DNA of 64,000 nt, taken from positions 1 through 64,000 of IMG/VR virus record IMGVR_UViG_3300021961_000033. One strand, written 5' to 3'. Each line of letters starts with the position of its first letter. Position 1 is the stretch's first letter. This document shows, piece by piece, positions 27,821 through 50,863 of the stretch. The position numbers and the translations under genes are program-made. The notes under the pieces were generated by a model, which saw only the letters and a program-made list of their open reading frames with translations, was not told the origin of the DNA and did no database searches. This stretch comes from a virus.

Positions 27821-27957
27821 TAGCATTTTTACTATTAGTAATAATTGTTATACTCCTAGCACAATGGTTTCCCGGCGTGCTAGGATTTATCGGCTGGGTA
27901 ATAATTCTAGGCTTCCTAAGCCTGTTAGTATTATTGGTTATTGGATCATTTAGATAG
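27817..27957 (+). CDS. 46-aa membrane peptide
   Basis: 46 aa almost wholly hydrophobic: FLLLVIIVILLAQWFPG then FIGWVIILGFLSLLVLLVIG, two membrane spans. ATGA overlap with the preceding gene shows it is co-translated. Possible envelope-modifying or superinfection-related peptide; inference only. Confidence 0.7.
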   Translation: MIAFLLLVIIVILLAQWFPGVLGFIGWVIILGFLSLLVLLVIGSFR

Positions 27958-29002
27958 TTTTCGCCCAGTTTTCGAATGCTACTAGGTTATTGATATACCA
28001 GGGCCTATTATAATCTGCTGGGTTACCTGATTCGTCTACATAACGAACTTTTCCTGGATAATTATCTATTTTTGCTTTTATAAAATCTGGATGGCAACAT
28101 ATATGTCGTTTGTGATTTGCTGAAGGAAAAGGAAATCCTGGCGTATGTATTCCGCCTACACTGCACGGGTTTGGCATTGTCCAGATTATATTAGTAACTC
28201 CAGCACCCGCAGTACTAATATATTTTTTCATTCCATTAAACAACACTATTTTTTCTGCTAGTGTATAGTTTTCCCCAAAAACTTCTGTATAGCCCAAACT
28301 TGATAAAATATCTACAACTTGATCTTCGTTTGTAAGACCGCGTTTTACAGTATTATCCTCGCCAATAATATCCTTTCGATTTTTTAAAGGATTTGCATGA
28401 GCACGTCTACTTAAATACACCCTTTCTATAGGTGGTAAATTTACTTTTTTATGTGCTAGTTGTATTAAATTATTAAGTTGGGTATATTGTTCTATACTGG
28501 GCCATATACGTTTACCAGTGCCGGGATCGTTACACATAGTATCACCAAAATATACTAATTCATATTGTGTATTTTCATCGGTTAGTTGGTAATCTATTCC
28601 TAACAATTCTAATAGTTCATAAACATAAGGAGGATGCTTTAGTGAACCTCCTTTGGGCGTTGGGCTCTGATTAAACATAAACTGCAAATCTGGTATACGT
28701 TCTTTTAACTCTAAATATCTACAAAGGCATCCAAAACTGTCCAGGAAAGTATGATAATAATTAAAAGTTGGTCTGGTATACCAATAAAAATATTTACCCT
28801 CTTTTTTATTAAACACTGGCTGGTGATCAGATATTTTTAAATGCTGAAGTGCTGCATTCTTATTCTTGCCCAACAATAGGGGATATATATCTTCGCCTTC
28901 TACAAATATTTCTTGTCCAGTTTTACCCAAGTCAAGTATTTGCACTTCCCTAAACAGCGCAATTCCCGTCTTGTCAAATCTTTCTCGTATATTTTGCATC
29001 AT
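27950..29002 (-). CDS. GT61-like glycosyltransferase (DUF563 type)
   Basis: 350 aa. FNYYHTFLDSFGCLCRYLEL (near 100-119), VYLSRRAHAN (about 222-231), and STAGAGVTNIIWTMP (about 271-285) match the GT61/capsular polysaccharide family (DUF563), which transfers sugars such as xylose or GlcNAc. Start overlaps the next glycosyltransferase by 4 nt. Its 3' end overlaps the membrane peptide on the other strand by 8 nt. Confidence 0.8.
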   Translation of the reverse strand: MMQNIRERFDKTGIALFREVQILDLGKTGQEIFVEGEDIYPLLLGKNKNAALQHLKISDHQPVFNKKEGKYFYWYTRPTFNYYHTFLDSFGCLCRYLELKERIPDLQFMFNQSPTPKGGSLKHPPYVYELLELLGIDYQLTDENTQYELVYFGDTMCNDPGTGKRIWPSIEQYTQLNNLIQLAHKKVNLPPIERVYLSRRAHANPLKNRKDIIGEDNTVKRGLTNEDQVVDILSSLGYTEVFGENYTLAEKIVLFNGMKKYISTAGAGVTNIIWTMPNPCSVGGIHTPGFPFPSANHKRHICCHPDFIKAKIDNYPGKVRYVDESGNPADYNRPWYINNLVAFENWAKTI

Positions 29003-29682
29003 GAACTATAAAGGTTAATAACTTCTTTTTTCCAGATGTGATCGTATTCACAATCACGCATGTTTTCGAACCAGGGCCCACCTTCTGTATAGTGTAGGAC
29101 TTTGGGAGTACCATCAGTGCCTTCCTGATAGTGTCCTACTAACCAGTTCCATTCAGGGCCCAGTTCTCCTATTTCACTATCCGAACACCATTCAAAACGA
29201 TGCAAGTATGCACCTGTTTTACTATTAACCGTTTCTAAATCTAATCCCTTACAACTAGGATGCTCGCAGTTAAATATCATCATACTGCTCCAGTTCTTGC
29301 GAGGGTAGGGCAACTGTAACTGGCCGTCCATCTTTATACCTTCAGGAGGGTTGTAGTCATGTTTAACTACATACACTGCTTTAGACGGATCCAACCCTTT
29401 AATTAACTCACACGCATCTGTAAGCCACACCATGTCACTGTCACAAAACACTGCCCATCCAGCGTACTCGTTTAGGTAGGGTACTAAAAATCTTGTAAAG
29501 GTAAATTCAGTACTGGCAAGTTTGTCTATATCTCTCCAGTAGACTTTTTGTTCTCTTAATTCATGCTGTTTAAGTGGAATAACATTTACTTTTTTACGAA
29601 ATGTTCTTCTTAAGATACTATGCTCACATACCTGGTAAGCAATGTCTTCTCTGCTATCCCAGCCAACATATATATTGAACAT
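28999..29682 (-). CDS. GT8-like glycosyltransferase (GT-A fold)
   Basis: 227 aa. NIYVGWDSREDIAYQV at the N-terminus, STEFTFTRFLVPYL (about 59-72), and WAVFCDSDMVWL with the DxD metal site (DSD near 82). C-terminal WNWLVGHY and VLHYTEGGPW complete the family pattern. It transfers a sugar from a nucleotide sugar; acceptor unknown. A perfect late box lies upstream. Confidence 0.8.
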   Translation of the reverse strand: MFNIYVGWDSREDIAYQVCEHSILRRTFRKKVNVIPLKQHELREQKVYWRDIDKLASTEFTFTRFLVPYLNEYAGWAVFCDSDMVWLTDACELIKGLDPSKAVYVVKHDYNPPEGIKMDGQLQLPYPRKNWSSMMIFNCEHPSCKGLDLETVNSKTGAYLHRFEWCSDSEIGELGPEWNWLVGHYQEGTDGTPKVLHYTEGGPWFENMRDCEYDHIWKKEVINLYSS

Positions 29683-29703
29683 TTTTGCGAATTACCTTAT
29701 AAT
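29675..29703 (+). promoter_or_regulatory. Sigma70-type promoter
   Basis: TTGAAC, 17 nt, TATAAT, facing the cytidylyltransferase-cupin gene at 29733, whose SD is AAGGACAAA. Confidence 0.55.
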
Positions 29704-29712
29704 ATACACATA

Positions 29713-29720
29713 TATTTATA
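29713..29720 (-). promoter_or_regulatory. T4-late promoter box, perfect match
   Basis: TATAAATA on the minus strand, 30 nt before ATG 29682. Confidence 0.55.
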
Positions 29721-29732
29721 AGGACAAATCTT

Positions 29733-30497
29733 ATGAAAATAGTTTTAGCAACTGGTGGATTCGATCCCATACATTCTGGCCATATTAGTTATTTTAAAGC
29801 GGCAAGACAGTTAGGCGATCGCCTAATTATAGGTGTTAACAGTGACGCATGGTTAGCAAGAAAAAAAGGCAGAAGTTTTATGCCCTGGCAAGAGCGTTCC
29901 ACCATTGTTGAAAGTTTAAGTGTGGTTGACGAAATTGTTGCCTTTCCTGACGATGATAACTCAGCTATTGGGGCAATACAGCGTGTAAAGGATAAATACC
30001 CTGACGCACAAATTGTATTTGTTAACGGTGGTGATAGGACTGCTGACAACATCCCAGAAATGGTGTTCGATGATGTTGAGTTTGTATTTGGTGTAGGCGG
30101 CGAGAATAAAGCAAATAGTTCAAGTTGGATTTTAGAAGAGTGGAAAGCTCCTAAAACCCAGAGACAATGGGGATATTATCGAGTAGTGCACGAGTATGGC
30201 AGTCATACAAAGTTGAAAGAACTGGCAGTAGATCCAGGCAGCAAACTATCAATGCAAAAGCACCAAGAGCGATCTGAACACTGGTTTGTAGCAGAAGGTA
30301 CTGCTACAGTTTATACAATTAATACAAGTAGTGATTACGAACTGTTTGGAGTTTATAATAAACACCAAAACCTTCATATACCTGTTGGCATGTGGCATCA
30401 GCTCGCCAATGAAACAGATAAACCTCTTAAGCTGGTTGAAATACAATATGGCACCAATTGTGTTGAAGAAGATATAGAACGTTTACCATTAGAATAA
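29733..30497 (+). CDS. Cytidylyltransferase-cupin fusion
   Basis: 254 aa. Residues 1-140: nucleotidyltransferase with GGFDPIHSGH (8-17, HxGH motif), LIIGVNSD and VNGGDRT (103-109 region), as in RfaE/TagD-type enzymes that activate sugar phosphates. Residues 150-245: a cupin (VDPGSKLSMQKHQERSEHWFV, VPVGMWHQL region) like mannose-6-phosphate isomerase type II C-domains. It probably makes an activated sugar for the glycosyltransferases around it; the substrate is unknown. Sigma70-type promoter upstream. Confidence 0.82.
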   Translation: MKIVLATGGFDPIHSGHISYFKAARQLGDRLIIGVNSDAWLARKKGRSFMPWQERSTIVESLSVVDEIVAFPDDDNSAIGAIQRVKDKYPDAQIVFVNGGDRTADNIPEMVFDDVEFVFGVGGENKANSSSWILEEWKAPKTQRQWGYYRVVHEYGSHTKLKELAVDPGSKLSMQKHQERSEHWFVAEGTATVYTINTSSDYELFGVYNKHQNLHIPVGMWHQLANETDKPLKLVEIQYGTNCVEEDIERLPLE

Positions 30498-30500
30498 ATA
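30494..30500 (+). promoter_or_regulatory. T4-late-like promoter box
   Basis: GAATAAATAT on the plus strand, 29 nt before ATG 30530, overlapping the stop of the fusion gene. Confidence 0.5.
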
Positions 30501-30529
30501 TTTAATCGACTAACAGAAAGGAATAGAAT

Positions 30530-30706
30530 ATGTCTAGTCATGACGATATTGTTGCTCAATTTGAAGCATATGTAAAAGAAAGCGAAGCATTCGAAACCAA
30601 AGGTGTAAAGGCTGCGGCTGCTCGTGCTCGTAAAGCACTTGGCGAACTAGGTAAACTAGCAAAAGCTCGCCGTGCTGAAATTCAGGACAAAAAGAACGCA
30701 ATGTAA
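30530..30706 (+). CDS. Histone-H1-like small basic protein
   Basis: 58 aa, starting MSSHDDIVAQFEAYVKESE, then GVKAAAARARKALGELGKLAKARR, Ala/Lys/Arg-rich like bacterial Hc1/H1-like proteins. Found as a conserved small protein in marine T4-like phages as I recall; likely DNA-binding. SD AGAAAGGA upstream. Its stop overlaps the cupin start (TAATG), so a DNA-binding protein sits in a sugar operon. Confidence 0.78.
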   Translation: MSSHDDIVAQFEAYVKESEAFETKGVKAAAARARKALGELGKLAKARRAEIQDKKNAM

Positions 30707-31080
30707 TGTTGCAAGGTAAAGTATGGGGTACTACAGAGAGTTTGTTAGTTACCCCGATGATCGAACTACATCGTATAAATGTTGAGCCACACATGAAGTG
30801 TAGCGAACACAAACATGAGTTTAAATGGAATGCATTTTATTGTGTTAGTGGAAGCATGCAAATTCATGTAAGGAAAAATGCTTACGATTTAACAGACATT
30901 ACAGAAATAACCGCAGGTGAATTTACCACTGTTGCGCCCAATGAATACCATTGGTTTGAAACTGGCACTGAATTTGCACAGGTTTTAGAAATCTATTATG
31001 TAGAGCCCATAAGCACTGACATTGTTAGACGCACTGTTGGTGGGCCTGCTACACAAAAACAAACAATTATGGAAGCATGA
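30706..31080 (+). CDS. Cupin-fold protein
   Basis: 124 aa. KCSEHKHEFKWNAFYCVSGS (about 31-50) holds the cupin motif 1 ligands (H35, H37, E38), and APNEYHWFETGTE (about 76-88) motif 2. Resembles sugar-modifying or metal-binding cupins, and the cupin domain of the neighbouring fusion. Likely isomerase or regulator of sugar metabolism. ATGA overlap with the next glycosyltransferase. Confidence 0.78.
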   Translation: MLQGKVWGTTESLLVTPMIELHRINVEPHMKCSEHKHEFKWNAFYCVSGSMQIHVRKNAYDLTDITEITAGEFTTVAPNEYHWFETGTEFAQVLEIYYVEPISTDIVRRTVGGPATQKQTIMEA

Positions 31081-31835
31081 TTGATATTGTTTGTGTCTGT
31101 GTTGGGGACAAATATCCCCCTGAAATATATGTAGGGCAGCTATACATCGCCGTAAAACGCTTTGTATCAAAGCCCTACATTTTTCATATTATAACAGACA
31201 AACACCATCCTTTTTACCCGACAATAGACGCTCGAGTACATATTGTGCCAGACTGGCCTGAAGCCAATGGCATGAGGAAATACTGGTGGTATAAAATACA
31301 AATGTTTAATCCAGCACACGGATTTAAAGATGTCTTTTACATGGATCTAGACGTTGTGCTTGTAAAAAATATAGACAAGTTCTTTGACTATCAACCTGAT
31401 AAGTTTGGTATATGTCAGGACTTTAATAGTCGCTGGATACCTAACTATAGTGTTAGCAATAGCAGCATTATGCGATACTATGCACCAGACTATACTGATA
31501 TCTATACTAATTTTATACAGGATATACCTGGATATATAAAAAGGTTTTTAGGCGACCAGGACTATATTACCAATTACTTTAAAGATAGATCTGACCTAGT
31601 ATGGTGGCCTAGGACCTGGGCGCAGAGTTTCAAGTGGGATGTTTTTAGGGGCGGTTTAATACAAAGTGGCACTGGATTAGATGAGCATGGCAAATGGCCT
31701 GCTGCTAAAAACAAATACTGTGATCCTGAACAACCCTGGGTAATAGATAAACAGTGTAGCATCGTTGTCTTCCATGGGCAGCCAGACCCTTATGATACTG
31801 ACTTTGGCAAGCAGCATCTACTCCCAAATGTTTAG
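31077..31835 (+). CDS. Glycosyltransferase, GT-A type
   Basis: 252 aa. DIVCVCVGDKYPPEIY start, HIITD strand, and VFYMDLDVVLVKNID with a DxD (DLD near 92-94). WFHG-like end VFHGQPDP is typical of this family. Transfers a sugar; acceptor unknown. Overlaps the cupin by 4 nt and converges with the minus-strand glycosyltransferase (18-nt overlap). Confidence 0.75.
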   Translation: MIDIVCVCVGDKYPPEIYVGQLYIAVKRFVSKPYIFHIITDKHHPFYPTIDARVHIVPDWPEANGMRKYWWYKIQMFNPAHGFKDVFYMDLDVVLVKNIDKFFDYQPDKFGICQDFNSRWIPNYSVSNSSIMRYYAPDYTDIYTNFIQDIPGYIKRFLGDQDYITNYFKDRSDLVWWPRTWAQSFKWDVFRGGLIQSGTGLDEHGKWPAAKNKYCDPEQPWVIDKQCSIVVFHGQPDPYDTDFGKQHLLPNV

Positions 31836-32807
31836 TAACTGTGCTCTAAAGTAAGCAAGTCTATCTGGCCCAAATCTATTAAAGAAATAATCTCTATTAT
31901 AATCTATAACACTCTGATGATAATCTACTAGACCTTGCAACAGTTGCGGTTTTATTAGTGTCAGATAATTTCCATTTGACTCTAGCATTGCATCTATTCT
32001 ATGTGTATTTTGTGCATATTGATATTCTTCATCAAACATGCAGTCCCAGGTTTTAAATCCGAAACTTTTTATGTCATCTAAACAGCTCTGGTGCCCAGCA
32101 ACTAAAAAGGGATGGCCTGCTACAATAGCATTAAAAGTCTTTTCACTTATTATACCCCAGCGTTCCTCATATTGGCTTTCGGATATAATACTAAACATAC
32201 TAGTATTAAAGTTTTGTTTCAAACTTAACAGGTTGCTCAAATTATCATAGGTATTGTTATAGGTTTTGTAATCTAATCCTGGATATTTTAATTCATGGCC
32301 GTGTGTTTGTAAACTAATATTGCCTCTGCTTAGTGACATTAGTTTACTGTATAAGATCTTTCTATGTGGTTTAGATATCCTATTCATACACAGGAAATTA
32401 TACTGAAAGTCCTTGTGTTTTTTATCAAACGCTTCACGTAAAACCTCTTCGCCATTCTTATAGGACTGCCAAGTTTCATACTGATGTGTGCTAAATTCAA
32501 CAAGATGAAATTCTCCATCATACTCATCTGCAAGACGCAGTGGCCAGACTACAACTATTATTTTATTCATATCAGCCCAGGGCTTGTAAAAACTGTGTAT
32601 GCGAGTTAATTCATTTGGAATGCCATCTGGACCCATAGTAAGCATGTCCTGCAGATTAAGAACTAATTTAAAATCAGGTTCATTAAATCTACATTCTGAA
32701 CGTCCTGGCATTTCTACATCCCAGCCCTGTGGCGTTATAGGATACTTTAGAGCAGCATCAACAATTATGCTATTGGGAAATATTTGTCTGACGGTTTGTA
32801 TAAACAT
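31818..32807 (-). CDS. Glycosyltransferase, fucosyltransferase-like C-terminus
   Basis: 329 aa from ATG 32807; an upstream start would lie within the sulfotransferase gene. FSIISESQYEERWGIISEKT, then AIVAGHPFLVAGHQSCLD and GFKTWDCMFDEEY match the C-terminal donor half of fucosyltransferase-like enzymes. N-terminal part IIVDAALKYPITPQG is unassigned. Related to the gene at 18683. Starts 4 nt after the sulfotransferase stop, so they are one operon. Confidence 0.72.
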   Translation of the reverse strand: MFIQTVRQIFPNSIIVDAALKYPITPQGWDVEMPGRSECRFNEPDFKLVLNLQDMLTMGPDGIPNELTRIHSFYKPWADMNKIIVVVWPLRLADEYDGEFHLVEFSTHQYETWQSYKNGEEVLREAFDKKHKDFQYNFLCMNRISKPHRKILYSKLMSLSRGNISLQTHGHELKYPGLDYKTYNNTYDNLSNLLSLKQNFNTSMFSIISESQYEERWGIISEKTFNAIVAGHPFLVAGHQSCLDDIKSFGFKTWDCMFDEEYQYAQNTHRIDAMLESNGNYLTLIKPQLLQGLVDYHQSVIDYNRDYFFNRFGPDRLAYFRAQLLNIWE

Positions 32808-32811
32808 TGTA

Positions 32812-33678
32812 TTATGTCTTTTTAATTTTAACTGATGCCATAAAGTCCTTGAGCCACTGTGGTGCATTTTCATCACCACCTTGATCGACCCATTTTCTAT
32901 TTTCTTCTTCTCGTTTAACCATTATTGGTCTTACAACATTAAAGTCGTCACTTATTGTATATCCTAAACGTCTAAAATCTTCTACAAAATATTCGTGTAT
33001 AGCATCTTTAAGTTTTAAATTTGCTTTTCTACTGTACTGTTTAACTTTACTTCCGCCATAGGCTGTGCCCAGGTATTCAAAAATTTTCTGACTTTCTATT
33101 TTGAAACACTTAACATTTGCCTGAGGTATACCAGCAATCCAATCAACTTGTCGTTCAAACGCCCAGGTAAAATGATTTGGCTCTGGTTCTGCTCTGTACC
33201 AGGTATTATAAAAGTCTCGTCGCTTTCCCAAATTTTTTAAAAAATTAACAAATCCTGTTATTTCTAAGGATTCCAAAGCATCAAGTCTATCTGATAAAAA
33301 CTGTCTTTCCCCTTCATTAAGTTCTACTTTTCCTTGTTCAGCATGTACGAGTTTACGTCTGTCTATATCCTTAAGGAAATTATAGGCACTCATAAATCTT
33401 CCAATAGGATTTCTTACACTTACCAAAAAGTTATTTGTTTCTAAATCTATAAGTTTGCCTATTTCTGCTGATTTACTATGGTTACCAGTTTCTATTGTTT
33501 CCAGTGGTATTTTTGTTTCAAGATGTTTTAAAATTAATACATCTCTAACACTAGTACCTCCACATTTAGGAATATGTATAAAGTATTCTTTGCTTTCAGG
33601 AAGATACAAAACCTGAGTTTTTACTTTCATTAGCGCAGGGTTAGATTTTATTATTTCGTTTACTTGTGGGTGTGCCAT
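32812..33678 (-). CDS. Sulfotransferase (family 2 type)
   Basis: 288 aa from ATG 33678 (TAATG junction with the upstream gene), rather than the longer frame. YFIHIPKCGGTSVRDVL (32-48) is the 5'-phosphosulfate loop, FLVSVRNPIGRFMSAYNF (84-101) the 3'-phosphate site; both bind PAPS. It moves sulfate to a carbohydrate in this family (PF03567). Rare but known type in phage. Its glycosyltransferase neighbours suggest a sulfated glycan. Confidence 0.85.
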   Translation of the reverse strand: MAHPQVNEIIKSNPALMKVKTQVLYLPESKEYFIHIPKCGGTSVRDVLILKHLETKIPLETIETGNHSKSAEIGKLIDLETNNFLVSVRNPIGRFMSAYNFLKDIDRRKLVHAEQGKVELNEGERQFLSDRLDALESLEITGFVNFLKNLGKRRDFYNTWYRAEPEPNHFTWAFERQVDWIAGIPQANVKCFKIESQKIFEYLGTAYGGSKVKQYSRKANLKLKDAIHEYFVEDFRRLGYTISDDFNVVRPIMVKREEENRKWVDQGGDENAPQWLKDFMASVKIKKT

Positions 33679-34595
33679 TAGTCTACTGGCTCCTGATGCT
33701 CGAGTATATGCTGCCACATTTTACCTGACACTATTTCCTTATGTTTATATTGGCAATTGGCTAGCCAATGTAACAGTTTTGCTCTGTTAGGCTCATTGTC
33801 GAATATTTCACTGTCTGTACCTTTATACAAATCTTCTAAGTTAAAACTTATCGGATAAACACTGCAATGTTTGTTTGTTATAACTGGAATACCAAGCATA
33901 GTTGCCTGTAATGCCACACTACTATTATAAGCAATTACTATATTACTCCTAGCCAGATCATATTCTAGTGGTACTTGACTTTCATCTTTGTGTTTTTCTA
34001 ATCTTAATAGATTGCCTGCTTTATCTACAATAGGCTCATTAGGCTTAACTCTTACTTTAATATTTTGATGTTGCTCTGGTGGTAAAATTTCTTTAAGTTT
34101 ATCTACTATTTTTGTAGCCCAGTCGCCAGTGTTAAAATACCATTGCACTGCATGAGTTGGCGGTAAAACTAGGATATTATCGCCTCTCTGTTCTCTTGTT
34201 CGCCATGGATGCACTGGATTGGTTTCTGCAAAAAAGATTTTCCAGCGATCTTTGCTTATGTCTACCTCGGGCAAATAATTCATAGTATGTCTATTTTTAC
34301 TTACTCTTAGCCAACACTTGCCATCGTATCCTGGATTAAAATAACTATGGTCTACATAGTATCTGTCTATGCCTAATGATGCTGCTCTTTGCATTGCAAG
34401 TCCAGTGCCTCTTAGTATTCCTAATACAGCAATAGCATCTGTTGCTCTGGGTATACCTTTGCGTAAAAATTCTTCAATACCGTGATATTCAGCAATCCAA
34501 TTAGTGCCAGAATAATTTACGCCAGCAAAAAAGTCGCTCATTATTTGACTTGTTTTTGGTCTTCCTGTTCCATAAACTACTATTTTTCTTTGCAT
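33678..34595 (-). CDS. Capsule-type GT-B glycosyltransferase-like protein
   Basis: 305 aa. VYGTGRPKTSQIM start, ILVLPPTHAVQWYFNTG, IKVRVKPNEP and SNIVIAYNSSVALQATMLGIPVI (about 215-237) followed by CSVYPISF. This matches capsular-polysaccharide/GT-B-like proteins in which the SVALxxxxLGxPV loop binds donor. Paralogous to the genes at 34580 and 42080. Substrate unknown. Confidence 0.72.
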   Translation of the reverse strand: MQRKIVVYGTGRPKTSQIMSDFFAGVNYSGTNWIAEYHGIEEFLRKGIPRATDAIAVLGILRGTGLAMQRAASLGIDRYYVDHSYFNPGYDGKCWLRVSKNRHTMNYLPEVDISKDRWKIFFAETNPVHPWRTREQRGDNILVLPPTHAVQWYFNTGDWATKIVDKLKEILPPEQHQNIKVRVKPNEPIVDKAGNLLRLEKHKDESQVPLEYDLARSNIVIAYNSSVALQATMLGIPVITNKHCSVYPISFNLEDLYKGTDSEIFDNEPNRAKLLHWLANCQYKHKEIVSGKMWQHILEHQEPVD

Positions 34596-35365
34596 TCTAG
34601 AATCCCGTAGGCCAATCCTGATCTTATTTCTTGTTGAGTAAACTGACAGTAAGCAAGGTGATTAAACCATGATCTCGTGTTAGTCCGTTTAGGCTGTTCT
34701 ATATTACTTAGTAGTGTTTCAGATACTGGTGAAGCAAAACTTTTTACATCACAAAATACAGGCACACCTTCGCTTATTGCTTCTACTGCACACATACTAA
34801 CGCTGGTAACTACAGCCCAAGCATCCTGTATGTCTTCTTTAAAACTATTAATACCTGCAATTTGTGCTGCTACTGGGCCACTAGTTTTGCCTGCTCTAGG
34901 TTTGGGTCTTACTCTAATTGGTCTGTCAGTATACTTTTGTAATTCTGCTATTACACTGGCAGTCCATTCCTTTTCCCCCTGCCCAGTACAATAGCGTGTT
35001 ATGGTGTCACTACTTGGGCAAACAACTATCTCAGACCCACTGTTGCGCCAGGGTTTAACTTTTAAGTTCCATTGATTAAATCTATCATCGGGTCTATTTA
35101 CTATTTGTGTTTCGTGGATTGAGTTTTTACTAACACGCCAATAAAATACATCAGCACCAGGCCGCCAGCGTCCCCAGTAGGGCATATCCCAAAAGTACCA
35201 GTCAGCACCTTGTGCTTGTAAATAACCAATTTGTTTTTGGTTGTCGTTTATAAATCCCCAAAAGTGATGTCCATCACCAGCCCAGCCCACTGCTAGACTG
35301 TCCATTACCCAATTACACTTACTATTGAGACTTTGTTTGTTATAGTATAGAGATGGCAAAGTCAT
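34580..35365 (-). CDS. Capsule-type GT-B glycosyltransferase-like protein
   Basis: 261 aa. ADWYFWDMPYWGRWRPGADVF, EIVVCPSSDTITRYCTGQG, RPIRVRPKPR and VVTSVSMCAVEAISEGVPVFC (about 184-204): same layout as the genes at 33678 and 42080. Overlaps its neighbours by 16 and 26 nt. A sugar-transfer role is inferred from the conserved loop and context. Confidence 0.7.
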   Translation of the reverse strand: MTLPSLYYNKQSLNSKCNWVMDSLAVGWAGDGHHFWGFINDNQKQIGYLQAQGADWYFWDMPYWGRWRPGADVFYWRVSKNSIHETQIVNRPDDRFNQWNLKVKPWRNSGSEIVVCPSSDTITRYCTGQGEKEWTASVIAELQKYTDRPIRVRPKPRAGKTSGPVAAQIAGINSFKEDIQDAWAVVTSVSMCAVEAISEGVPVFCDVKSFASPVSETLLSNIEQPKRTNTRSWFNHLAYCQFTQQEIRSGLAYGILECKEK

Positions 35366-35936
35366 ACTCTTCTAGATGTTCTAGATCTGGCTTTTTTAAC
35401 CCATGCTTGTGTGCTATTGCTTTTTCCCATTCTCTGGGATAAAAAAATTCACTAGGAGAAAATGTAATTTTTAAAGTACGCTGTACTGGGCGTAAACTGC
35501 AAACATCAATAATACGCAAATCTGTAAAGTCAGGATTAACTAGTACATTGGTGCCAGTTCTGTCATCAAAATACCAATGAGTGTCAGCAATAAAGTCTTG
35601 ATGGGCGTTTATTACTCTTTTATAATAAGCAAGGATATTTTTTGGATCTTTAAAATAATCATTATACTCTTTTACCCGCAAGTCTTCATAAAAGTCGCAA
35701 CTACCTCTTATTATTACAGGCTGGAAATCTTCCAGATATTCTGTTAGTATCCATTCTCCACATTCGTATATAGGTATAATGTCATTTTGTTTTTGCGAAT
35801 AATCTAGTACTTGTTGAGGAAGTACTAGCCCGTCAACATTGTAAACTGCAAAGTAAGTTTTATCAGAGTCCTCAAGTATTTGGTAACGCCTGTCGCCTGG
35901 CTTATTCCAGTACTGGAGTTCCTTTATAACTTTCAT
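35340..35936 (-). CDS. Kinase-like-fold protein
   Basis: 198 aa. IYECGEWILTEYLEDF resembles the hinge of kinase-fold enzymes; HWYFDDRTGTNVLV resembles a catalytic loop with Asp and Asn, then LRIIDVCSL where the metal Asp sits. The ATP-binding N-lobe is short. Could phosphorylate a sugar or lipid precursor, as do LPS-core kinases; it may be inactive. Overlaps the gene before it by 4 nt. Confidence 0.6.
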   Translation of the reverse strand: MKVIKELQYWNKPGDRRYQILEDSDKTYFAVYNVDGLVLPQQVLDYSQKQNDIIPIYECGEWILTEYLEDFQPVIIRGSCDFYEDLRVKEYNDYFKDPKNILAYYKRVINAHQDFIADTHWYFDDRTGTNVLVNPDFTDLRIIDVCSLRPVQRTLKITFSPSEFFYPREWEKAIAHKHGLKKPDLEHLEEYDFAISIL

Positions 35937-36130: not shown

Positions 36131-36345
36131 TATAGTCTTCCTGCTTTTAGGATTTTGTCTGCAAACTCTACATATTCAGAATATGTAAAATGTAATCTTA
36201 CTAGCCATTTTTTAGGACTGCGTTGGCCAAAATGAATGTGTATAGGAAATTCGTCCCCCACATTATCCTCTATATGAAACTGACTATTACCCGGAACAGG
36301 AAAATTACATTCCCCTCTACCCAAACTTTTAACTACTAGTCCCAT
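36130..36345 (-). CDS. Small protein, tandem pair member
   Basis: 71 aa starting MGLVVKSLGRGECNFP, with FPIHIHFGQRSPKKW and a C-terminal helix FTYSEYVEFADKIL. Similar plan to the 65-aa gene that follows. Unknown role; embedded in the glycan operon and overlapped by its neighbours. Confidence 0.68.
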   Translation of the reverse strand: MGLVVKSLGRGECNFPVPGNSQFHIEDNVGDEFPIHIHFGQRSPKKWLVRLHFTYSEYVEFADKILKAGRL

Positions 36346-36962
36346 TTTATATCACCATATTTTTCAGCAACAAGCAATTCATAAGTTTTATCAGCGTCTG
36401 GCAAAACTTCGCCTATAGTGTTTATTGCTGTTTGTTTATCTACTGTATTTAATAGTTCCTGAATTCGTGTCTTATGTTTTTCTTTCCAAGCACCCTGGTT
36501 GTCTAGTGCACCCCTGCATATTGTAAGAGCAATTTCGTCTTCTGGACTGATTAAATAGTAAAAGTTTTCCAGTCTGCGTCTGCTTAAAACATTATCATAA
36601 TAGCGTTTACTAACAGTCCAATTTGTAGTGTAATCTTCTAGAGGAGACTTAAAATATAAACTGTTGTAAAAATCCACTCTAAATGCCTGATGCTTGTTGG
36701 GTATCCTAGGATCTCGTGGTGCTGTAGTAAAATGTGGCCAGTATTGCATATCACACCATTCTGCATAACCATAATTTTGATGTGTGCCTGGCTTTAAGTA
36801 TTCCCTAGCAATCTTACAAAACTGTTCATACTGATCTGGTCTGACAGTTAAATCAACATCTGTATCAGGAAGGTCAGGCAGTCTTAAAAATCCTCTGAAT
36901 ATTACATAGTCAAAGTCTGCTACTGCTTGAATAAAATCTTTAAACTGTTGTTGATGTGTCAT
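36336..36962 (-). CDS. Nucleotidyltransferase-like protein
   Basis: 208 aa. FDYVIFRGFLRLPDLPDTDVDLTV (17-40 region) resembles the G...D.D start of minimal nucleotidyltransferase folds (two Asp in DTDVD). FRVDFYNSLYF may hold a third acidic residue. Donor and target unknown. Overlaps its neighbours by 4 and 10 nt. Confidence 0.62.
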   Translation of the reverse strand: MTHQQQFKDFIQAVADFDYVIFRGFLRLPDLPDTDVDLTVRPDQYEQFCKIAREYLKPGTHQNYGYAEWCDMQYWPHFTTAPRDPRIPNKHQAFRVDFYNSLYFKSPLEDYTTNWTVSKRYYDNVLSRRRLENFYYLISPEDEIALTICRGALDNQGAWKEKHKTRIQELLNTVDKQTAINTIGEVLPDADKTYELLVAEKYGDIKWD

Positions 36963-37564
36963 AACTCTCTTATTAGTTTAACTACGCTGTTGTTATTTAC
37001 AAATCTTTCTTCCATGTTTTTTTGTAAACATATCCACCATCCTACATGCCCAGGACATAAATCTATATCGTATGGATTCCGCATACGCTCCCTGCGATGC
37101 ATAATAACAAAGTCACTGGCAAATCTATCTTTTAGTCCTTGCTCTACACCTTGCCCGCTGCCATACCCGTAAAGTAGATCCTGCTCATATGCTGCTTGAA
37201 CATCTGCCTGCCAATCGTGCTCGTATAAAACTACATCAGGCCTTACACGAATAATCATGTCATATTCTTCAGGTACTTTGGCTAGACAATGCCAGTGATT
37301 ATACAATTGGTATACACGATCGTGTTGTGTTCTTCCACCATCAAACTTGCGGGAGAACCAAGTCTTGCTAGGATTTCCGTCTGGTAAAGACAGAATATAG
37401 GTATTAAATGCCCGTAAAAAACTTTCTAAATCGGGCAAATCAGGCTGTGGCGTTTCTGCCCAAGTGTGAGTAAACTGATCATAAGGCAAATATTTGCCTA
37501 TACTTTCCAGAACTAATTGTTCGCTGCCTCTATTTTCCCCACTTATGCAGACTGCTATTTTCAT
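36959..37564 (-). CDS. Glycan-biosynthesis-type protein (GT-A-like)
   Basis: 201 aa. Starts KIAVCISGENRGSEQL, with HTWAET, a basic middle, and YDMIIRVRPDVVLYEHDW (about 101-118), then FVIMHRRERM. This is the family found in polysaccharide clusters that begins KIAVCISGQ and keeps IRxRPD. A sugar-transfer role is likely but unproven. ATGA overlap with the following nucleotidyltransferase-like gene. Confidence 0.7.
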   Translation of the reverse strand: MKIAVCISGENRGSEQLVLESIGKYLPYDQFTHTWAETPQPDLPDLESFLRAFNTYILSLPDGNPSKTWFSRKFDGGRTQHDRVYQLYNHWHCLAKVPEEYDMIIRVRPDVVLYEHDWQADVQAAYEQDLLYGYGSGQGVEQGLKDRFASDFVIMHRRERMRNPYDIDLCPGHVGWWICLQKNMEERFVNNNSVVKLIREL

Positions 37565-37567
37565 TTT

Positions 37568-38371
37568 TTAATAAGCCGCACTAGTATGATTGCCCTGTCT
37601 AGTGTCTATGTTAGCATCACTATATTCTGATCTTAATTCAGCGACAACATCATTAACATATCGACCCTGCATAGGAATCTGGAAAGGTTGATCCTTAAGT
37701 TTCCTATATGCTGCTACTAAACTTATATTTTGTGCTCGGCTATCACGCTGATGTAGTTCATCATATGCTCGTTCCAAATCGCTTACAGGGGCTCTTGGTT
37801 TCTTTTGTTCAAAGTTTGCCCAGCCATCCATTGTGGTGGGCATTTCTATATAGCGTCCTGTGTTTTGTGCTAACCATAAAAACTGCCATTCATATCCATT
37901 AGCCGCTGCTATATCTCTAAATAAAGCAGGATGATAATTATAAAAGCCATGATTAATCCAAGGAGCAAAGGGCAGTACACATAACATTACTCCGCCAACC
38001 CTGCATAGATTGTGCATGTTTTCAAACACTGTACGCTGATCAAATATATGCTCTCCTGTACCATTATTGGTCACTAGATCAAATTGTTTAATGTAATTGT
38101 ATTTGTCCCGGAGAATAAAGTTTAAGTCCATGGCTACACTTCGCAACTCTGTGTTAATGTCTATAGCCAAATACTCTGGGAAGCCAATGTCTTCAAAGTA
38201 TTCCCAAACATAATTTACAGGCTTGCGTATAGGTTTACCTGCCCGCTCACTGCACTGTTGCACCCAACTCTCTGTGTAACGGAAACGTTGGTTACCCCAC
38301 TCTACTACAGTGCCTGATGTTGTTTTGCTTATCTCAGCACAGGCTAACTGCATAATATTGTTGAATGCCAT
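37568..38371 (-). CDS. Methyltransferase-like protein
   Basis: 267 aa. VVEWGNQ (22-28) in the position of the SAM loop, YLAIDINTEL with an acidic Asp, FDLVTNNGTGEHIFDQ, then LCRVGGVMLCVLPF (post-motif). Resembles class I methyltransferases, with a weakened glycine loop. C-terminal 60 residues are unassigned. TAATG junction with the fusion gene upstream. Confidence 0.68.
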   Translation of the reverse strand: MAFNNIMQLACAEISKTTSGTVVEWGNQRFRYTESWVQQCSERAGKPIRKPVNYVWEYFEDIGFPEYLAIDINTELRSVAMDLNFILRDKYNYIKQFDLVTNNGTGEHIFDQRTVFENMHNLCRVGGVMLCVLPFAPWINHGFYNYHPALFRDIAAANGYEWQFLWLAQNTGRYIEMPTTMDGWANFEQKKPRAPVSDLERAYDELHQRDSRAQNISLVAAYRKLKDQPFQIPMQGRYVNDVVAELRSEYSDANIDTRQGNHTSAAY

Positions 38372-39603
38372 TATACTTTCCTAAAGTGATAGTATTCTCG
38401 CTGTCCACTTGGACGAGCCTGTCCATGTGCTTCCTGTGTAAACTTTGTTTTAAATGCTGCTAGCATCTTGTTTGTGTGATCTATATTGTTTGGGCGGTTT
38501 TCAAGTTTTTGTGTCTCGTGTACAACAACACCACCAGGCGCTAACAAGTCGTAATAAGCATCAACTATCTCTTGTTCTGTTAATCCGCCAAAGTCACGCA
38601 ATTGAATACTCACTGCTAAACTTAATACAATATCATAGTAGTCAGTTGCTTTGAACTTCATATAGTCATTGAATGTGCCTGTGTACCATTTTACATTGGC
38701 TGGCTTTTTATCATCACGTAACTTTACAAAAGGTTCTACGCCTGTTGCTTTTGCTACATGTGGTGCCATAAGTTTGGTAATGAATCCATCATTGCATCCA
38801 ATATCAATCAATTGTGCATTTCCGTTCCATTGTTGTGCTAGTTCAACAAGTTTCATACGTTGGACTCTATCTTCTGCATCAGCAATGCCATAACGCTTTT
38901 GATATTTGTTCCATTCTTTGACTACTTTTTCTGGTGGTTGTGTAAACATTGTCATATTATCCCATATTTCTCTTGGATTACCTTTGCGTAACTCATCAAA
39001 CTTAGACTTGTCAGATAGTTTAGCCATTAGCTCACTTTCCCAACTTTGTCTTGGATCATCTAGACAAATGTGTAGTGCTTGTCTAAACTCATCCTTGTTG
39101 TAAAAACTGTATAGATATCCTAACCTATCACTTAATCTTTCGTGTGCTAGACTGTTTATTGGACACGACATCTCAAAGTCTATTAAACTTATTTCGCCAT
39201 CCTGTATACAAAAGTTACTTAGCGGAAACTTTGCGAAGTCTTTTGATTTACTTGCTGGATCCATTCCTGGATAGAAATACATTATGTTAGCATGTTCTAG
39301 TTCATTTGCAATACAATCAATTTGATCATGATACTTGGTTAAATTGTGTTCATGCCATGTGTGAAATAAACTTTCGCCAACTAATGTCATTGCTAAACTA
39401 TGATCAGTTTTGTCTGCACCTATCATGTTAGGAAAATGTAGTTTTCCTTGTAGTCTTTGCAAACAAGTTGTTTCTCGTAACCAACAATCATATATGCTAC
39501 CGCGGGCAGGCTTAACACTTTTTTTATTTCTAGTACTGTAACTTTTTACAACATGCTCTCCTGTCATAAAACACCAGCTAGCTTTGCCCATAGTATACTG
39601 CAT
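38371..39603 (-). CDS. Kinase-like/methyltransferase fusion
   Basis: 410 aa. Residues 1-170: kinase-like fold, with GKASWCFMTGEHVVKSYS, ETTCLQRLQG, MTLVGESLF and FCIQDGEISLIDFEMSC (acidic DFE-like site). Residues 240-410: class I SAM methyltransferase with LIDIGCNDGFITKLMAP (about 261-277), GVEPF, DIVLSLAVSIQLRD and LLAPGGVVVHETQ. A two-domain fusion fits phospho-plus-methyl capping of a growing glycan, as in O-antigen chain terminators; this is inference. Confidence 0.72.
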   Translation of the reverse strand: MQYTMGKASWCFMTGEHVVKSYSTRNKKSVKPARGSIYDCWLRETTCLQRLQGKLHFPNMIGADKTDHSLAMTLVGESLFHTWHEHNLTKYHDQIDCIANELEHANIMYFYPGMDPASKSKDFAKFPLSNFCIQDGEISLIDFEMSCPINSLAHERLSDRLGYLYSFYNKDEFRQALHICLDDPRQSWESELMAKLSDKSKFDELRKGNPREIWDNMTMFTQPPEKVVKEWNKYQKRYGIADAEDRVQRMKLVELAQQWNGNAQLIDIGCNDGFITKLMAPHVAKATGVEPFVKLRDDKKPANVKWYTGTFNDYMKFKATDYYDIVLSLAVSIQLRDFGGLTEQEIVDAYYDLLAPGGVVVHETQKLENRPNNIDHTNKMLAAFKTKFTQEAHGQARPSGQREYYHFRKV

Positions 39604-40376
39604 TAGTTTTTAATTTCTTTAACTTTCCACATACGACCTGTACCATTGAACTCGCCAATAATATTAATACTTCTACGAGTATGTTGTGGATTGATTCTTG
39701 GTGTAACACTATGTACACTGTTCTTTACATTAAGGAACATGCAAAAGGTATTGCGCTTATAGGGCACTTGCTTTACTGCATGATGTAAACTGTTGTCCAC
39801 TTGTCTGCCCAGTGTTTTGTTTACTTCAGTTATCTCACCTGTAACTTCATGTATAGTAAAATTACCGCCCACACTTTCGTCACCAGGCTTACGCATATAC
39901 AAGAGCCCAGCATAAATTTCTACTGGGTTGTCAACATGAGGTGTTCTGCTTGTGCCGGTCTCGTCTACTGGCTCATGTACTACAAACTGACAGTCTGTTA
40001 CAAAGTGGCCACTATTGTCTACATCCCTAACTGTCACAGGTTTAGCATATAGTTCTGTTAGCAGTTCAGGATATAGCCTTTCAAGGTGTGGCTCAAATAA
40101 ACTGATACATTCCCCAAAGTAATCAGCACTGGTATGATATTCAAAAAACTCTTGCCATATGGCTGGTATTTTGCCTTCTACTAGTGCTGGATTACTCTTG
40201 TATCTGTAAGTGATGCCACCATCATGTGCAGGTGTACTTGTAACTAGTTCTTCAGGAAAAGTTTCCTCAAGTTCTGCATAAATGTGATCAGGCAGCGCAT
40301 CCTCTACGCAAACATGCGGATAAGGATGAGCAAACACTGTCTTTACATTTTGCAGTACACTGAGAACACCGTTCAT
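39603..40376 (-). CDS. 2OG-Fe(II) oxygenase
   Basis: 257 aa. PHVDNP gives H147/D149, SVHSVTPR gives H222, and an Arg in QHTRRSINI (234/235) binds 2-oxoglutarate. Prolyl-hydroxylase-like double-stranded beta helix. Target unknown; in the glycan operon it could oxidise a sugar or a small molecule. Overlaps the next gene by 4 nt. Confidence 0.8.
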   Translation of the reverse strand: MNGVLSVLQNVKTVFAHPYPHVCVEDALPDHIYAELEETFPEELVTSTPAHDGGITYRYKSNPALVEGKIPAIWQEFFEYHTSADYFGECISLFEPHLERLYPELLTELYAKPVTVRDVDNSGHFVTDCQFVVHEPVDETGTSRTPHVDNPVEIYAGLLYMRKPGDESVGGNFTIHEVTGEITEVNKTLGRQVDNSLHHAVKQVPYKRNTFCMFLNVKNSVHSVTPRINPQHTRRSINIIGEFNGTGRMWKVKEIKN

Positions 40377-41176
40377 GCTGGCAATTTACCTGTGCAACAT
40401 AGACTTGCTGTAACATAGCCAACAAGGCCGGCTACAACTAAACTTGCTGTTTGTGGACTTACATACGCCCAGGGTGCTTCACTAATTGCTAGTCCTAAGA
40501 GTGTAGCAAGAGCGCCAATAAGTGCGTCCTTTTCTCCGCCTACACCTTCTCTTACATCCGGAATAGCCCAAAGTATTTCAACAAAGTAAGCACAAACTGC
40601 ATGACATTCTGTGGCAATTACTGCTTGATCAACTGCACCTGCTGCTGCTGCGGCTGCTGTTTCAGCACACAATGGAGCAAACATTGCTGTTGTTTCTTCT
40701 TCGGTCGCAGGGTTGTTTAGTGTAGCAGCAAATGCGCCTGAGATAGCTGCACTAACAGTAATAGTACAAATATTCTCCGCTAGGTATTCACCCATTGCTA
40801 CAAGATCTTTGCCTACAGCTTCAGCACCTGCTTCAAATGCTTTTCCTGCTGTAACACAACCTGCTGTAAATTCATCACAGCCAATTTGTGCACCTTGTGC
40901 TGCTTTGTTCCAACTGTCTACTGTGCTTTGCGTTGCTGGGCGAAGTACTTGACTGTTAATTGTGTTAATAGCATCTGTGGTTGCTTGGGCGGTTGCATTG
41001 TATGCATCAGTTGCTGTTTTTGCTACTGTGTTAGCGGCATCAACTGTACCATCTGCTACTGTATTTGCTACATCTGTTGCAGTTTTTCCCACAGTGTTTG
41101 TTACTGTTGATGTTCCTTTGGCAATATCATTGCCTACTTTTTGCCAACTTGACTTTTTGAACGGATTCCATCCCAT
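40373..41176 (-). CDS. Repeat-rich, Ala-rich protein with C-terminal hydrophobic part
   Basis: 267 aa. Residues 20-90 repeat a TVxxTAxDAANT-like 11-residue pattern (VAKTATDAYNATAQATTDAI), as in LEA or apolipoprotein-like amphipathic helices. Residues 135-265 are Ala/Val/Cys-rich with likely membrane segments (ITVSAAISGAFAATL, TASLVVAGLVGYVTASL). Starts MGWNPFKKSSW. It could insert into membrane or coat a surface. It overlaps both neighbours by 1-4 nt in the glycan operon. Function unknown. Confidence 0.7.
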   Translation of the reverse strand: MGWNPFKKSSWQKVGNDIAKGTSTVTNTVGKTATDVANTVADGTVDAANTVAKTATDAYNATAQATTDAINTINSQVLRPATQSTVDSWNKAAQGAQIGCDEFTAGCVTAGKAFEAGAEAVGKDLVAMGEYLAENICTITVSAAISGAFAATLNNPATEEETTAMFAPLCAETAAAAAAGAVDQAVIATECHAVCAYFVEILWAIPDVREGVGGEKDALIGALATLLGLAISEAPWAYVSPQTASLVVAGLVGYVTASLCCTGKLPA

Positions 41177-42066
41177 TATTTTAGACCTTTCGATTTGACT
41201 TGTTGTTCTGCATCGTATTCGTGCGGGTTTTTTAATTTTTCCTTACGGATGTCTGCTTTAGTAACATGCCTGAGATCCTGCCACCATTCGCCTGTAGCAA
41301 AATGATCATACTGCCTAGCATATACATCACCCACTAAACTTTTGCCCACTTCCTTGCGGAAGCCTTTTAGATGATCCATATACTTGCCTAGTACACTGTT
41401 AATAAAAACATGACCGCCCATACTTGGACCGCCTAGGTCACGATGCCCTGCATCTGCAAAGTCCTGTACCATTTCTCCAAATATAAAACTATCATGACTC
41501 TCTTCATGATTAAAAATATCGTCGCTTTCGTATATCCAACGCCACTGACTCATAAACTCTTCAAACTGTGGGTGGCGTCTATTAAACATCATCCAACCAC
41601 ATTCTGGCCAGGTTTTGCGTCCTAGGTGTGTAGTAAGTTGTTGTTCACTGGGAGCGATCTCTTGTAAAAATTCCATAGGCATTGGAGTATGTGTACGCAC
41701 ATCACCATCACACCAGATCATAATGTCTGCATCGGTGTGTTTAGCAAAGTGCCAGAGTGCAAACACCTTGTTTGCAAATCTACTTGCATCCCATAGAAAA
41801 CTTTTCTTTGACTTGTCAGCATTCCAACCGTGAGCATGTGGATTATCTTTATGACGTTCTTGCCAGGCTTTAAGGTCTGGCAGTGTAGAGCGTTGATCCA
41901 AAACTTCTATGTTGTCAGCATTGTATGTGTTTGGCTCGTGGTCCTCTGCATAAATTGTTAACTTTACTTCACTAGGCCAGTTTTGTAGGAAGCCCTGTAT
42001 AAAGTGGTTACCGTACTTTTTATAGCCTGTAGGATGCCACGTGGTAAATACTGATAATGTACGCAT
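41176..42066 (-). CDS. Glycosyltransferase, GT-A type
   Basis: 296 aa from ATG 42066; the 5-residue longer frame would run past the divergent start. TTWHPTGYKKYG, then ADIMIWCDGDVRTHTP with a DxD (DGD near 118), ECGWMMFNRRHPQFEEF and DSFIFGEMV. Typical GT-A layout. No SD; a TAAATA box lies 5 nt upstream. Substrate unknown. Confidence 0.75.
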   Translation of the reverse strand: MRTLSVFTTWHPTGYKKYGNHFIQGFLQNWPSEVKLTIYAEDHEPNTYNADNIEVLDQRSTLPDLKAWQERHKDNPHAHGWNADKSKKSFLWDASRFANKVFALWHFAKHTDADIMIWCDGDVRTHTPMPMEFLQEIAPSEQQLTTHLGRKTWPECGWMMFNRRHPQFEEFMSQWRWIYESDDIFNHEESHDSFIFGEMVQDFADAGHRDLGGPSMGGHVFINSVLGKYMDHLKGFRKEVGKSLVGDVYARQYDHFATGEWWQDLRHVTKADIRKEKLKNPHEYDAEQQVKSKGLK

Positions 42067-42079
42067 ATTACTATTTACC

Positions 42080-42937
42080 ATGAAGATATCACACTTCCCA
42101 AATAACTTACCAACAAACCAAAATATGGTTTATCCCCAACTAATTGATGCAATAAAAAGCACAGATGAATTAGTTGAGGGGAACATGGATGCTGATGCTG
42201 CACTTATATGGAGTGTACTTTGGTTTGGCAAGATGAGTGGTAATAAGCGAGTATGGGATCATTATCGTGCACAGGGCAAGCCAGTAGTTGTTATAGAAGT
42301 TGGCGGCCTTATACGCAACGAAACTTGGAAACTAGGTATTAATGGAATAAATCGAGATGCTGATTTTGCACTGGACGTGGGCATAAATCCTGATAGGGTC
42401 AAACAATTAGGTGTCGTAAAGGAGCCCTGGAACTGTGCACAGAAGCCTTACATATTAATATGTGGTCAGCATGCTCATAGTTTACAGTGGGAAGGCATGC
42501 CAGACATGGACACCTACTTCCGCAACACTGTAACTGAAATACGCAAACAGTATGATAATCCTATTGTACTAAGAGCACATCCTCGTTTTAGAGAAAACTT
42601 ACATTTTAGTATAAGTGATCCTGGTTGGTATAAAGAGCAAAACTGTGAATGGAATATTGCAAAGCCTGTACAGAAAACTTACGACAGTTTTGACTTAGAA
42701 GACCAACTTAAAGAAACTTTTTTAACTGTAAGTTTTAGTAGTAACGCCGGCGTAAACAGTATTATAAAAGGTATTCCTAGCATAGTAAGTGAACACAGTT
42801 TAGCCTGGGATATGAGTAGTACTATGCAAGAAGTGCGTTGCTTTGCTCGTAGTGAATGGCTAATCAAGATGTGTAACATTGAATGGCGTGCTGATGAAAT
42901 AGGCACACAATGGCAGCGTTTAAGGACTAAGCTCTAA
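42080..42937 (+). CDS. Capsule-type GT-B glycosyltransferase-like protein
   Basis: 285 aa from ATG 42080, 13 nt from the divergent start at 42066. KPVVVIEVGGLIRNETWKLG, PYILICGQHAHS, PIVLRAHPRF and LTVSFSSNAGVNSIIKGIPSIV (about 216-237). Same plan as the genes at 33678 and 34580. No SD seen. It is the only plus-strand gene between two minus-strand blocks. Confidence 0.72.
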   Translation: MKISHFPNNLPTNQNMVYPQLIDAIKSTDELVEGNMDADAALIWSVLWFGKMSGNKRVWDHYRAQGKPVVVIEVGGLIRNETWKLGINGINRDADFALDVGINPDRVKQLGVVKEPWNCAQKPYILICGQHAHSLQWEGMPDMDTYFRNTVTEIRKQYDNPIVLRAHPRFRENLHFSISDPGWYKEQNCEWNIAKPVQKTYDSFDLEDQLKETFLTVSFSSNAGVNSIIKGIPSIVSEHSLAWDMSSTMQEVRCFARSEWLIKMCNIEWRADEIGTQWQRLRTKL

Positions 42938-43698
42938 CGCTCGTATCTATAATCGTAAACTTGACCATCCATCCAGGTTGTGACTAGGCCCTGATTGGAC
43001 AAGTAACCTTTTTCATATATAATTTCTGACATGTTTGTTGTTAGTAAATCTTTTTCCACTAAATGATACCAAGTTGTATTATAGTCAAGTGGTTCACTGA
43101 CTTTATAAGTCATAACCTCTATCCTGTCTACATATGCTTCTTTCTTCATATAGAAACTTTTAGTATCAAACCCGTTAAGTGCTAGCAGGTATAATAGTTG
43201 AGTAGTAGTAAATGTATTAAAACTAAGCGGCAGTGTATAGTTTGTAAACTGATGGTATAGTACATTTATTGTAGTTGGCACACACAAATAAAGCATGCCG
43301 CCGTCTGCTGTAACCTTATTAACATTATTTAAAAACCACAATGGACTCCAACTGTACTGCATGACATCATGGCACCAAACTACGTCAAACTTCTTTTCAA
43401 ACTCTCCCATGCCTTGTTCAGTATTAAAGTCATGTTTAACTGTTGTTATGTTTTTCTCTACAGGCTGTACTACATCAATTTTGTTAAGTCCAACACAGTC
43501 TATATTGAGGCGACGTCCTGGATTTTCCTCATCAAACTCATCAGTCATATTAGCCCAGTACTTTAGGTCTAATAATTCTTTACCGCAGCCTATATCTAAC
43601 ACACTACTTACACTAGTTTTGAACTCATAATGTTCATTTAACTTTTCTAGCGTTTCTAAACTATGCTCGTGACTTTCTTGCTCACTAGTAAATATCAT
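42934..43698 (-). CDS. SAM-dependent methyltransferase
   Basis: 254 aa. SVLDIGCGKELLDLKYW (33-49), VGLNKIDV, KHDFNTEQGMGEFEKKFDVVWCHDVMQY and MLYLCVPTTIN: class I methyltransferase. Substrate unknown. Converges with the plus-strand gene at 42080 (4-nt overlap). Its upstream neighbour overlaps by 4 nt. Confidence 0.8.
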   Translation of the reverse strand: MIFTSEQESHEHSLETLEKLNEHYEFKTSVSSVLDIGCGKELLDLKYWANMTDEFDEENPGRRLNIDCVGLNKIDVVQPVEKNITTVKHDFNTEQGMGEFEKKFDVVWCHDVMQYSWSPLWFLNNVNKVTADGGMLYLCVPTTINVLYHQFTNYTLPLSFNTFTTTQLLYLLALNGFDTKSFYMKKEAYVDRIEVMTYKVSEPLDYNTTWYHLVEKDLLTTNMSEIIYEKGYLSNQGLVTTWMDGQVYDYRYER

Positions 43699-49700: not shown

Positions 49701-49719
49701 AAGTTTACTCCGTAAGAAT

Positions 49720-49741
49720 AAGGGCGGCAAAAGCCGCCCTT
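49720..49741 (-). terminator. Rho-independent terminator after gp32
   Basis: AAGGGCGGC/GCCGCCCTT with TTTT loop on the minus strand, then ATTCTT. Lies 9 nt after the gp32 stop. Confidence 0.8.
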
Positions 49742-49750
49742 ACTTTTGCC

Positions 49751-50728: not shown

Positions 50729-50731
50729 AGT

Positions 50732-50775: not shown

Positions 50776-50800
50776 AATCATACTCTACACTAACTCTTAT

Positions 50801-50830: not shown

Positions 50831-50863
50831 CAATTAAATTTAAGTTTTTTTGATATAAAAATT

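Follow-up and report, generated by a model that had tools for sequence, protein, structure and literature searches.

About 20 genes for building and decorating a sugar chain adjoin the recombination genes uvsX and uvsY of an uncultured T4-type giant phage, known from the virus record IMGVR_UViG_3300021961_000033. We analysed bases 1-64,000 of this 117,201-base record (the window); the record encodes a terminase, sheath, portal, helicases and a primase and in all likelihood represents part of a larger T4-type phage genome, two relatives being about 350 kb long. The named phages with the UvsX nearest to its own are Phosso and Atu_ph07, ahead of other Rak2-type jumbo phages. The gene island (window positions 27,950-43,698) lies at one position in nearly all of the relatives sampled, and late-promoter cores in many of its copies raise the possibility that it glycosylates virion proteins late in infection.

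The island has a fixed place after uvsX-uvsY

Loci were gathered by uvsX and not by the glycan genes: among the best 80 uvsX matches, 44 loci had at least 4 kb downstream, and island-family genes stand just after uvsX-uvsY in 43 of them, a figure that speaks for near relatives. Approached from the other side, 80 loci gathered by the cytidylyltransferase-cupin gene contain a uvsY-like gene in 73 cases and uvsX in 63; the next gene after the cytidylyltransferase-cupin is the GT8-like enzyme in 47 of the 80, with KpsC-like enzymes common within three genes. The relatives used throughout were chosen from close matches, and their records, like this one, are fragments.

Gene content is likewise kept. 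All 18 of the larger island families occur in order in contig IMGVR_UViG_3300025889_000194, where the sulfotransferase is 58% identical, and seven other contigs each have 10-14 of the 18, some of their stretches ending inside the locus. In comparisons with the nearest relatives, the 12 island genes with unsaturated synonymous sites have a ratio of nonsynonymous to synonymous substitution rates (dN/dS) of 0.03-0.15, a range that leaves out five more genes in which these sites are saturated. The order kept in independent contigs, together with the low dN/dS, argues that the arrangement is not due to chance and that the gene set is kept by purifying selection.

Across 50,697 named phage records, nothing matches the fusion of a cytidylyltransferase to a cupin over 80% of its length, yet its relatives are encoded by at least 598 viral stretches from environmental viral contigs. 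In a genome collection, 417 stretches matched the search pattern and 243 encode a relative of the fusion; the best 80 of these 243, kept as loci, have record titles that are mostly SAR86 and Pelagibacteraceae. We considered whether the fusion belongs to a host polysaccharide cluster, but other island genes are absent nearby in these best 80 of 243, bar one weak match resembling gene 38371 (genes are named here by their first coordinate in the window), and in three of these loci, inspected by eye, the adjacent genes resemble housekeeping genes.

Late-promoter cores precede island genes in many relatives

Of the 34 sites of the T4-type late-promoter core ATAAATA in the record, 27 are followed by a same-strand gene start no more than 250 bp away (about 15% of positions would be expected), as are 22 of 25 sites in relatives, and in both sets the core ranks first of its 21 anagrams. 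It is also selective with regard to genes. Within 80 bp, the core is found in 53 of 117 distinct upstream regions of the cytidylyltransferase-cupin and in 31 of 51 of the virion protein 52050, and in none of those of uvsX (0/125), the uvsY-like gene (0/132), the AAA protein 25501 (0/20) or uvsW (0/17). Clustering at 80% identity leaves the core before 48 of 99 cytidylyltransferase-cupin genes and 26 of 41 copies of 52050. It likewise precedes the GT8-like gene in loci L211, L224, L226, L230, L231 and L232.

The distance from core to start codon in viral loci peaks at exactly 5 nucleotides, with 88 cases against a control mean of 2.8, and a further group lies near 18-26 nucleotides. This 5-nucleotide spacing is seen upstream of orthologues of 29733 and 52050 (e.g. 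in L018, L020 and L023), and for the cytidylyltransferase-cupin the core stands 5 nucleotides from the ATG in 55 of 58 cases. With T4 late promoters, such a spacing would place the transcript start at about the ATG, which suggests leaderless late mRNAs across the lineage. The case for late control is one of sequence, seen in many relatives and at two places of the window's island, and it is weaker in the window than in the relatives.

Glycosyltransferases and decorating enzymes

The genes lie where a sequence-only reading had placed them, and most overlap (Table 1). That reading counted at least eight glycosyltransferase-type proteins, which is fair: six of the nine calls are backed by profile or structure, and three, made on motifs, are tentative. 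The GT8-like protein is itself weak against the GT8 profile (0.048), its best homologue reaching 1.5e-6. For the glycosyltransferase families, profile searches of the PDB gave no significant match, and neither Pfam, PHROG nor NCBIfam gave anything useful for 31818, 35340 and 36336; the calls for these three genes and for 36959 and 41176 were made on motifs or position.

The AlphaFold model of 34580 has a GT-B fold, for which the best PDB matches are KpsC, WbbB and KrkA. Against KpsC, the model gives a Z-score of 12.3 with 221 residues aligned and a root-mean-square deviation of 4.4, in keeping with the two-domain KpsC/WbbB fold; for 33678 and 42041 the same type of fold was assigned by alignment only. 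Retaining beta-3-deoxy-D-manno-octulosonic acid (Kdo) transferases carry their catalytic aspartate in a conserved QXXXD motif (PMC12887879, PMC10148158). In two island-family alignments this motif is not conserved at the equivalent strand, nor is the QKYTD of the window copy. The cytidine monophosphate (CMP)-binding motif (K/R)XHP is present as RAHP in 42041 and altered to RxKP in 34580 and 33678, KrkA itself departing from it. Because the QXXXD aspartate is not conserved, we do not file the KpsC-like enzymes as Kdo transferases, and membership of those families was dropped.

Among the other enzymes, the sulfotransferase and the cytidylyltransferase-cupin named by the sequence-only reading are clear by profile. 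The sulfotransferase falls in the PF03567 family and its alignment conserves both motifs for 3'-phosphoadenosine 5'-phosphosulfate (PAPS), IPKCGGTS and VRNPIGRF, while PDB matches of 29733 are ethanolamine-phosphate and glycerol-3-phosphate cytidylyltransferases. Three methyltransferase-like domains were likewise borne out, clearly by profile in 38371 and 42934 and more weakly in 37568. The free cupin and the oxygenase are also weaker by profile, the metal and cosubstrate residues HxD...H...R of the latter being invariant in 13 homologues. Of the two kinase-like domains proposed, structure supports the N-terminal half of 38371, whose matches include the kinase folds of Ark1, Bud32 and Rio2, and 35340 stays a motif-based call; methyltransferases, NodS and TylM1 among them, are matched by the C-terminal half of 38371. 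We weighed a WbdD-like kinase-methyltransferase as the identity of 38371 and do not claim it; WbdD is not among the matches listed, which does not in itself speak against it.

One gene, 40373, appears to move between positions. Between 41176 and 39603 is a slot that 40373 fills here; in L010 a protein with an S74 chaperone domain takes its place, in L171 membrane proteins do so, and in others the slot is empty. We considered 40373 as the glycan acceptor and found this unsupported, with a 97% identical copy elsewhere in the relative G001 and a slot that is often empty or otherwise filled. The G001 copy of this 267-amino-acid protein lies, by eye, beside DnaJ- and Clp-like genes. The island version of G001 also contains a Gram-negative porin gene (Porin_4, 6.7e-21; L212:5370-6308, +), and radical S-adenosylmethionine (SAM) genes are present in the versions of some relatives.

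Table 1 Features of the island and its anchor genes (window coordinates)
Feature	Position	Strand	Evidence
GT61 glycosyltransferase	27950..29002	-	Pfam PF04577 8.3e-12, above cut-off
GT8-like glycosyltransferase, invariant DxD	28999..29682	-	PF01501 matched by 13 of 14 homologues
TATAAATA, T4-type late promoter core	29713..29720	-	30 bp before GT8-like gene 28999-29682
Cytidylyltransferase fused to ManC-type cupin	29733..30497	+	PF01050 3e-23, PF01467 5e-14
AATAAATA, late-type core before cupin-glycosyltransferase pair	30493..30500	+	
Free cupin, start codon uncertain	30706..31080	+	PF07883 1e-5, just under cut-off
Glycosyltransferase, DxD-like motif	31077..31835	+	PHROG 1962 glycosyltransferase 6e-17
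Putative glycosyltransferase, tentative	31818..32879	-	No profile match; kept in relatives
Sulfotransferase, both PAPS-binding motifs	32812..33717	-	PF03567 5e-8
KpsC-fold-type GT-B glycosyltransferase, paralogue	33678..34595	-	Aligns with 34580
KpsC-fold GT-B glycosyltransferase	34580..35365	-	AlphaFold2 model, pLDDT (predicted local distance difference test) 94.9
Kinase-like protein, tentative	35340..35936	-	Sequence pattern only; no Pfam match
Nucleotidyltransferase-like protein, tentative	36336..36962	-	Conserved DTDVD motif; no profile match
Putative glycosyltransferase, tentative	36959..37564	-	Invariant RVRPD; weak match to PHROG 13607 (unknown function)
Methyltransferase	37568..38371	-	PF13489 1.2e-4, under cut-off; 68-87% identity to relatives
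Kinase-like domain fused to methyltransferase	38371..39603	-	PF13489 7e-8 and AlphaFold2 model
2-Oxoglutarate (2OG)-Fe(II) oxygenase	39603..40376	-	PF13640 5.5e-4; HxD...H...R invariant
Cargo gene in variable slot, no glycan enzyme	40373..41176	-	97% identical copy elsewhere in G001; slot varies between relatives
Putative GT-A glycosyltransferase, tentative	41176..42081	-	DGD invariant in 13 homologues
KpsC-fold-type GT-B glycosyltransferase, paralogue with RAHP	42041..42937	+	Alignment with 34580
Methyltransferase	42934..43698	-	PF13489 1.1e-6, above cut-off
UvsY-like anchor gene	44015..44473	-	51% identity to Vibrio 2.275.O recombination protein annotated PF11056
UvsX anchor gene	46417..47493	-	PHROG 97, 5.6e-71

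Proposed virion glycosylation and its alternatives

A flippase, Wzy polymerase, initiating transferase and ABC-2 exporter were looked for, and neither this record nor the relatives searched, all of them fragments, match PF01943, PF02397, PF04932 or PF01061. Strong transmembrane segments are not seen in any island protein, 40373 showing them weakly. The earlier observation of no flippase or polymerase thus holds in these records, and its preference for a short decorated glycan over a capsule fits; where it had left a protein and the host surface tied as the acceptor, the late cores lean towards the virion without settling the matter.

Since the pathway appears late, cytosolic and without clear membrane parts, the simplest reading is decoration of virion proteins, and we give late, cytosolic glycosylation of such proteins by a short decorated glycan about an even chance of being correct. 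Sugar donors would be drawn from the host pool, possibly together with one cytidine diphosphate (CDP)- or CMP-type donor tied to the cytidylyltransferase-cupin. NAD-dependent epimerases are found elsewhere in the relatives G001, G004, G005 and G006 and are not seen in this 117-kb fragment, so part of the donor supply could come from other regions of the phage genome. A short chain would be made directly on the acceptor protein in the cytoplasm by GT-A (GT8-like), GT61 and three KpsC-fold GT-B enzymes and decorated by the methyltransferases, the sulfotransferase, the kinase-like/methyltransferase fusion and the 2OG oxygenase; the acceptor would then be built into the particle, where the glycan may shield it or tune adsorption. 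Inference enters this scheme at the substrates, the sequence of steps and the choice of the virion as acceptor. There is a precedent in mycobacteriophages, whose capsid and tail proteins carry glycans according to work cited in PMC12619734.

Several points weigh against a virion acceptor. The window has no late core directly before the cytidylyltransferase-cupin or before the main minus-strand run 42934-31818, and an alteration of the host surface late in infection would agree with late timing as well. The pathway is read from genes. Moreover, the nearest folds, KpsC and WbbB, act on surface glycans, and a survey by Iyer et al. (2021, PMC7824862) interprets jumbo-phage clusters of a similar kind as modifying the host O-antigen. 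These last points feed the strongest alternative, in which the island alters a host surface glycan (lipopolysaccharide, O-antigen or capsule) during infection and so blocks competing phages or keeps progeny from sticking to debris. Cytosolic enzymes would add residues to a host lipid-linked glycan, or cap those it has, ahead of its export by host machinery, which would account for a phage without export genes, and KpsC, WbbB and KrkA indeed make or cap surface glycans (PMC10148158, PMC9587256, PMC12887879). Nevertheless, late-type promoters stand on many locus copies, whereas exclusion of competitors would be most useful early; the KpsC-type QXXXD aspartate is not conserved; and in SAR86 and SAR11 genomes no other island genes adjoin the cytidylyltransferase-cupin. 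We regard a surface role as a real but distinctly less probable explanation. The late cores before locus genes in many relatives favour a late, virion-linked role, without deciding the issue.

That the island makes a sugar-containing small molecule, such as a secondary metabolite or signal, and no glycoconjugate is improbable: phage clusters interpreted as metabolite pathways likewise contain methyltransferases, a 2OG oxygenase and cupins (PMC7824862), and some relatives add radical SAM genes, but eight or nine glycosyltransferase-type proteins and a sulfotransferase better fit an oligosaccharide, and scans of the island recognised no scaffold-building enzyme. Hypermodification of phage DNA with sugars is very improbable, since, although the island adjoins recombination and replication genes and DNA-modifying phage glycosyltransferases are known from work cited in PMC12619734, no thymidylate-synthase-type hydroxymethylase (PF00303) is matched in nine records, which are fragments, and one would not expect a sulfotransferase, GT61 or KpsC-fold enzymes in a pathway that modifies DNA.

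Taking virion glycosylation one step further, we tentatively propose, as a composite more likely to fail in some part than to hold in full, that a lineage of uncultured giant phages may make a sulfated, methylated and hydroxylated oligosaccharide in the host cytosol and put it on particles late, via KpsC-fold transferases without the known catalytic aspartate, the lead gene often being on a leaderless late mRNA.

Neighbouring genes

Beyond uvsY lies a gene for a TRAP-type DctP solute-binding protein (window 44591-45535, -; Pfam 9e-41) in which no hydrophobic signal sequence is evident. The gene has CATAAATA 31 bp upstream, and the search gave three viral relatives at 46-68% identity. The relative G015 has a TctA tricarboxylate transporter membrane protein (L227:5597-6919, -; Pfam 1.4e-64) near the AAA protein gene, and the product of the gene next to that for TctA (L227:6931-7818) is TctC-like by eye only. 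A second odd gene group around uvsX (window 47509-51967, -) includes 48308, whose product is like Asp/Asn beta-hydroxylases (Pfam 1.8e-15), and 50864, in which a resemblance to asparagine synthetase is seen by eye only; two further proteins of the group are unassigned.

Comparison with known systems

Phage glycan clusters are already known; what is new here is the fixed place, the apparent late control and the enzyme set. The island has the several clustered glycosyltransferases that characterise jumbo-phage polysaccharide-modification clusters, and resembles the jumbo-phage and cyanophage clusters of the P-SSM2 type (PMC7824862) also in its HIGH-type nucleotidyltransferase, cupin and modifying enzymes. 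It differs from them in its place after uvsX-uvsY, its late-promoter cores, its KpsC-fold enzymes and its sulfotransferase. Complete jumbo-phage clusters include an NAD-dependent epimerase/dehydratase; in this lineage such genes lie elsewhere in some relatives, and none is seen in this record, a fragment.

A near-identity search of the island DNA against named phages gave no match. Phosso, Atu_ph07 and Vibrio phage 2.275.O, of the Rak2 type, have the TerL-UvsX-UvsY backbone and further neighbours in common with this record, but in the stretches compared neither annotation nor protein comparison shows an island gene in the uvsY-uvsW interval. The Pelagibacter phage Mosig EXVC030M (MT647606) has a cluster with relatives of 41176, 28999, 34580 (two copies) and 31077 as well as methyltransferases and a sulfotransferase; this cluster is smaller, lies beside a putative RuvC gene and has no ATAAATA directly before it, and the phage is not among the organisms matched by the cytidylyltransferase-cupin.

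The closest solved folds to 34580 are those of the retaining beta-Kdo transferases KpsC, WbbB and KrkA (GT107, GT99 and GT140). The island provides a family that has the KpsC fold and lacks the known nucleophile. Mycobacteriophage virion glycosylation, as cited in PMC12619734, involves the mechanism proposed here, phage glycosyltransferases acting on structural proteins; by comparison, the island, known from its genes, is far larger and carries decorating enzymes, in an unrelated phage. The usual reading of phage glycan clusters is that they alter the host surface; here a fixed place and, in many relatives, a late-type promoter in common with particle genes make the choice between virion and host directly testable.

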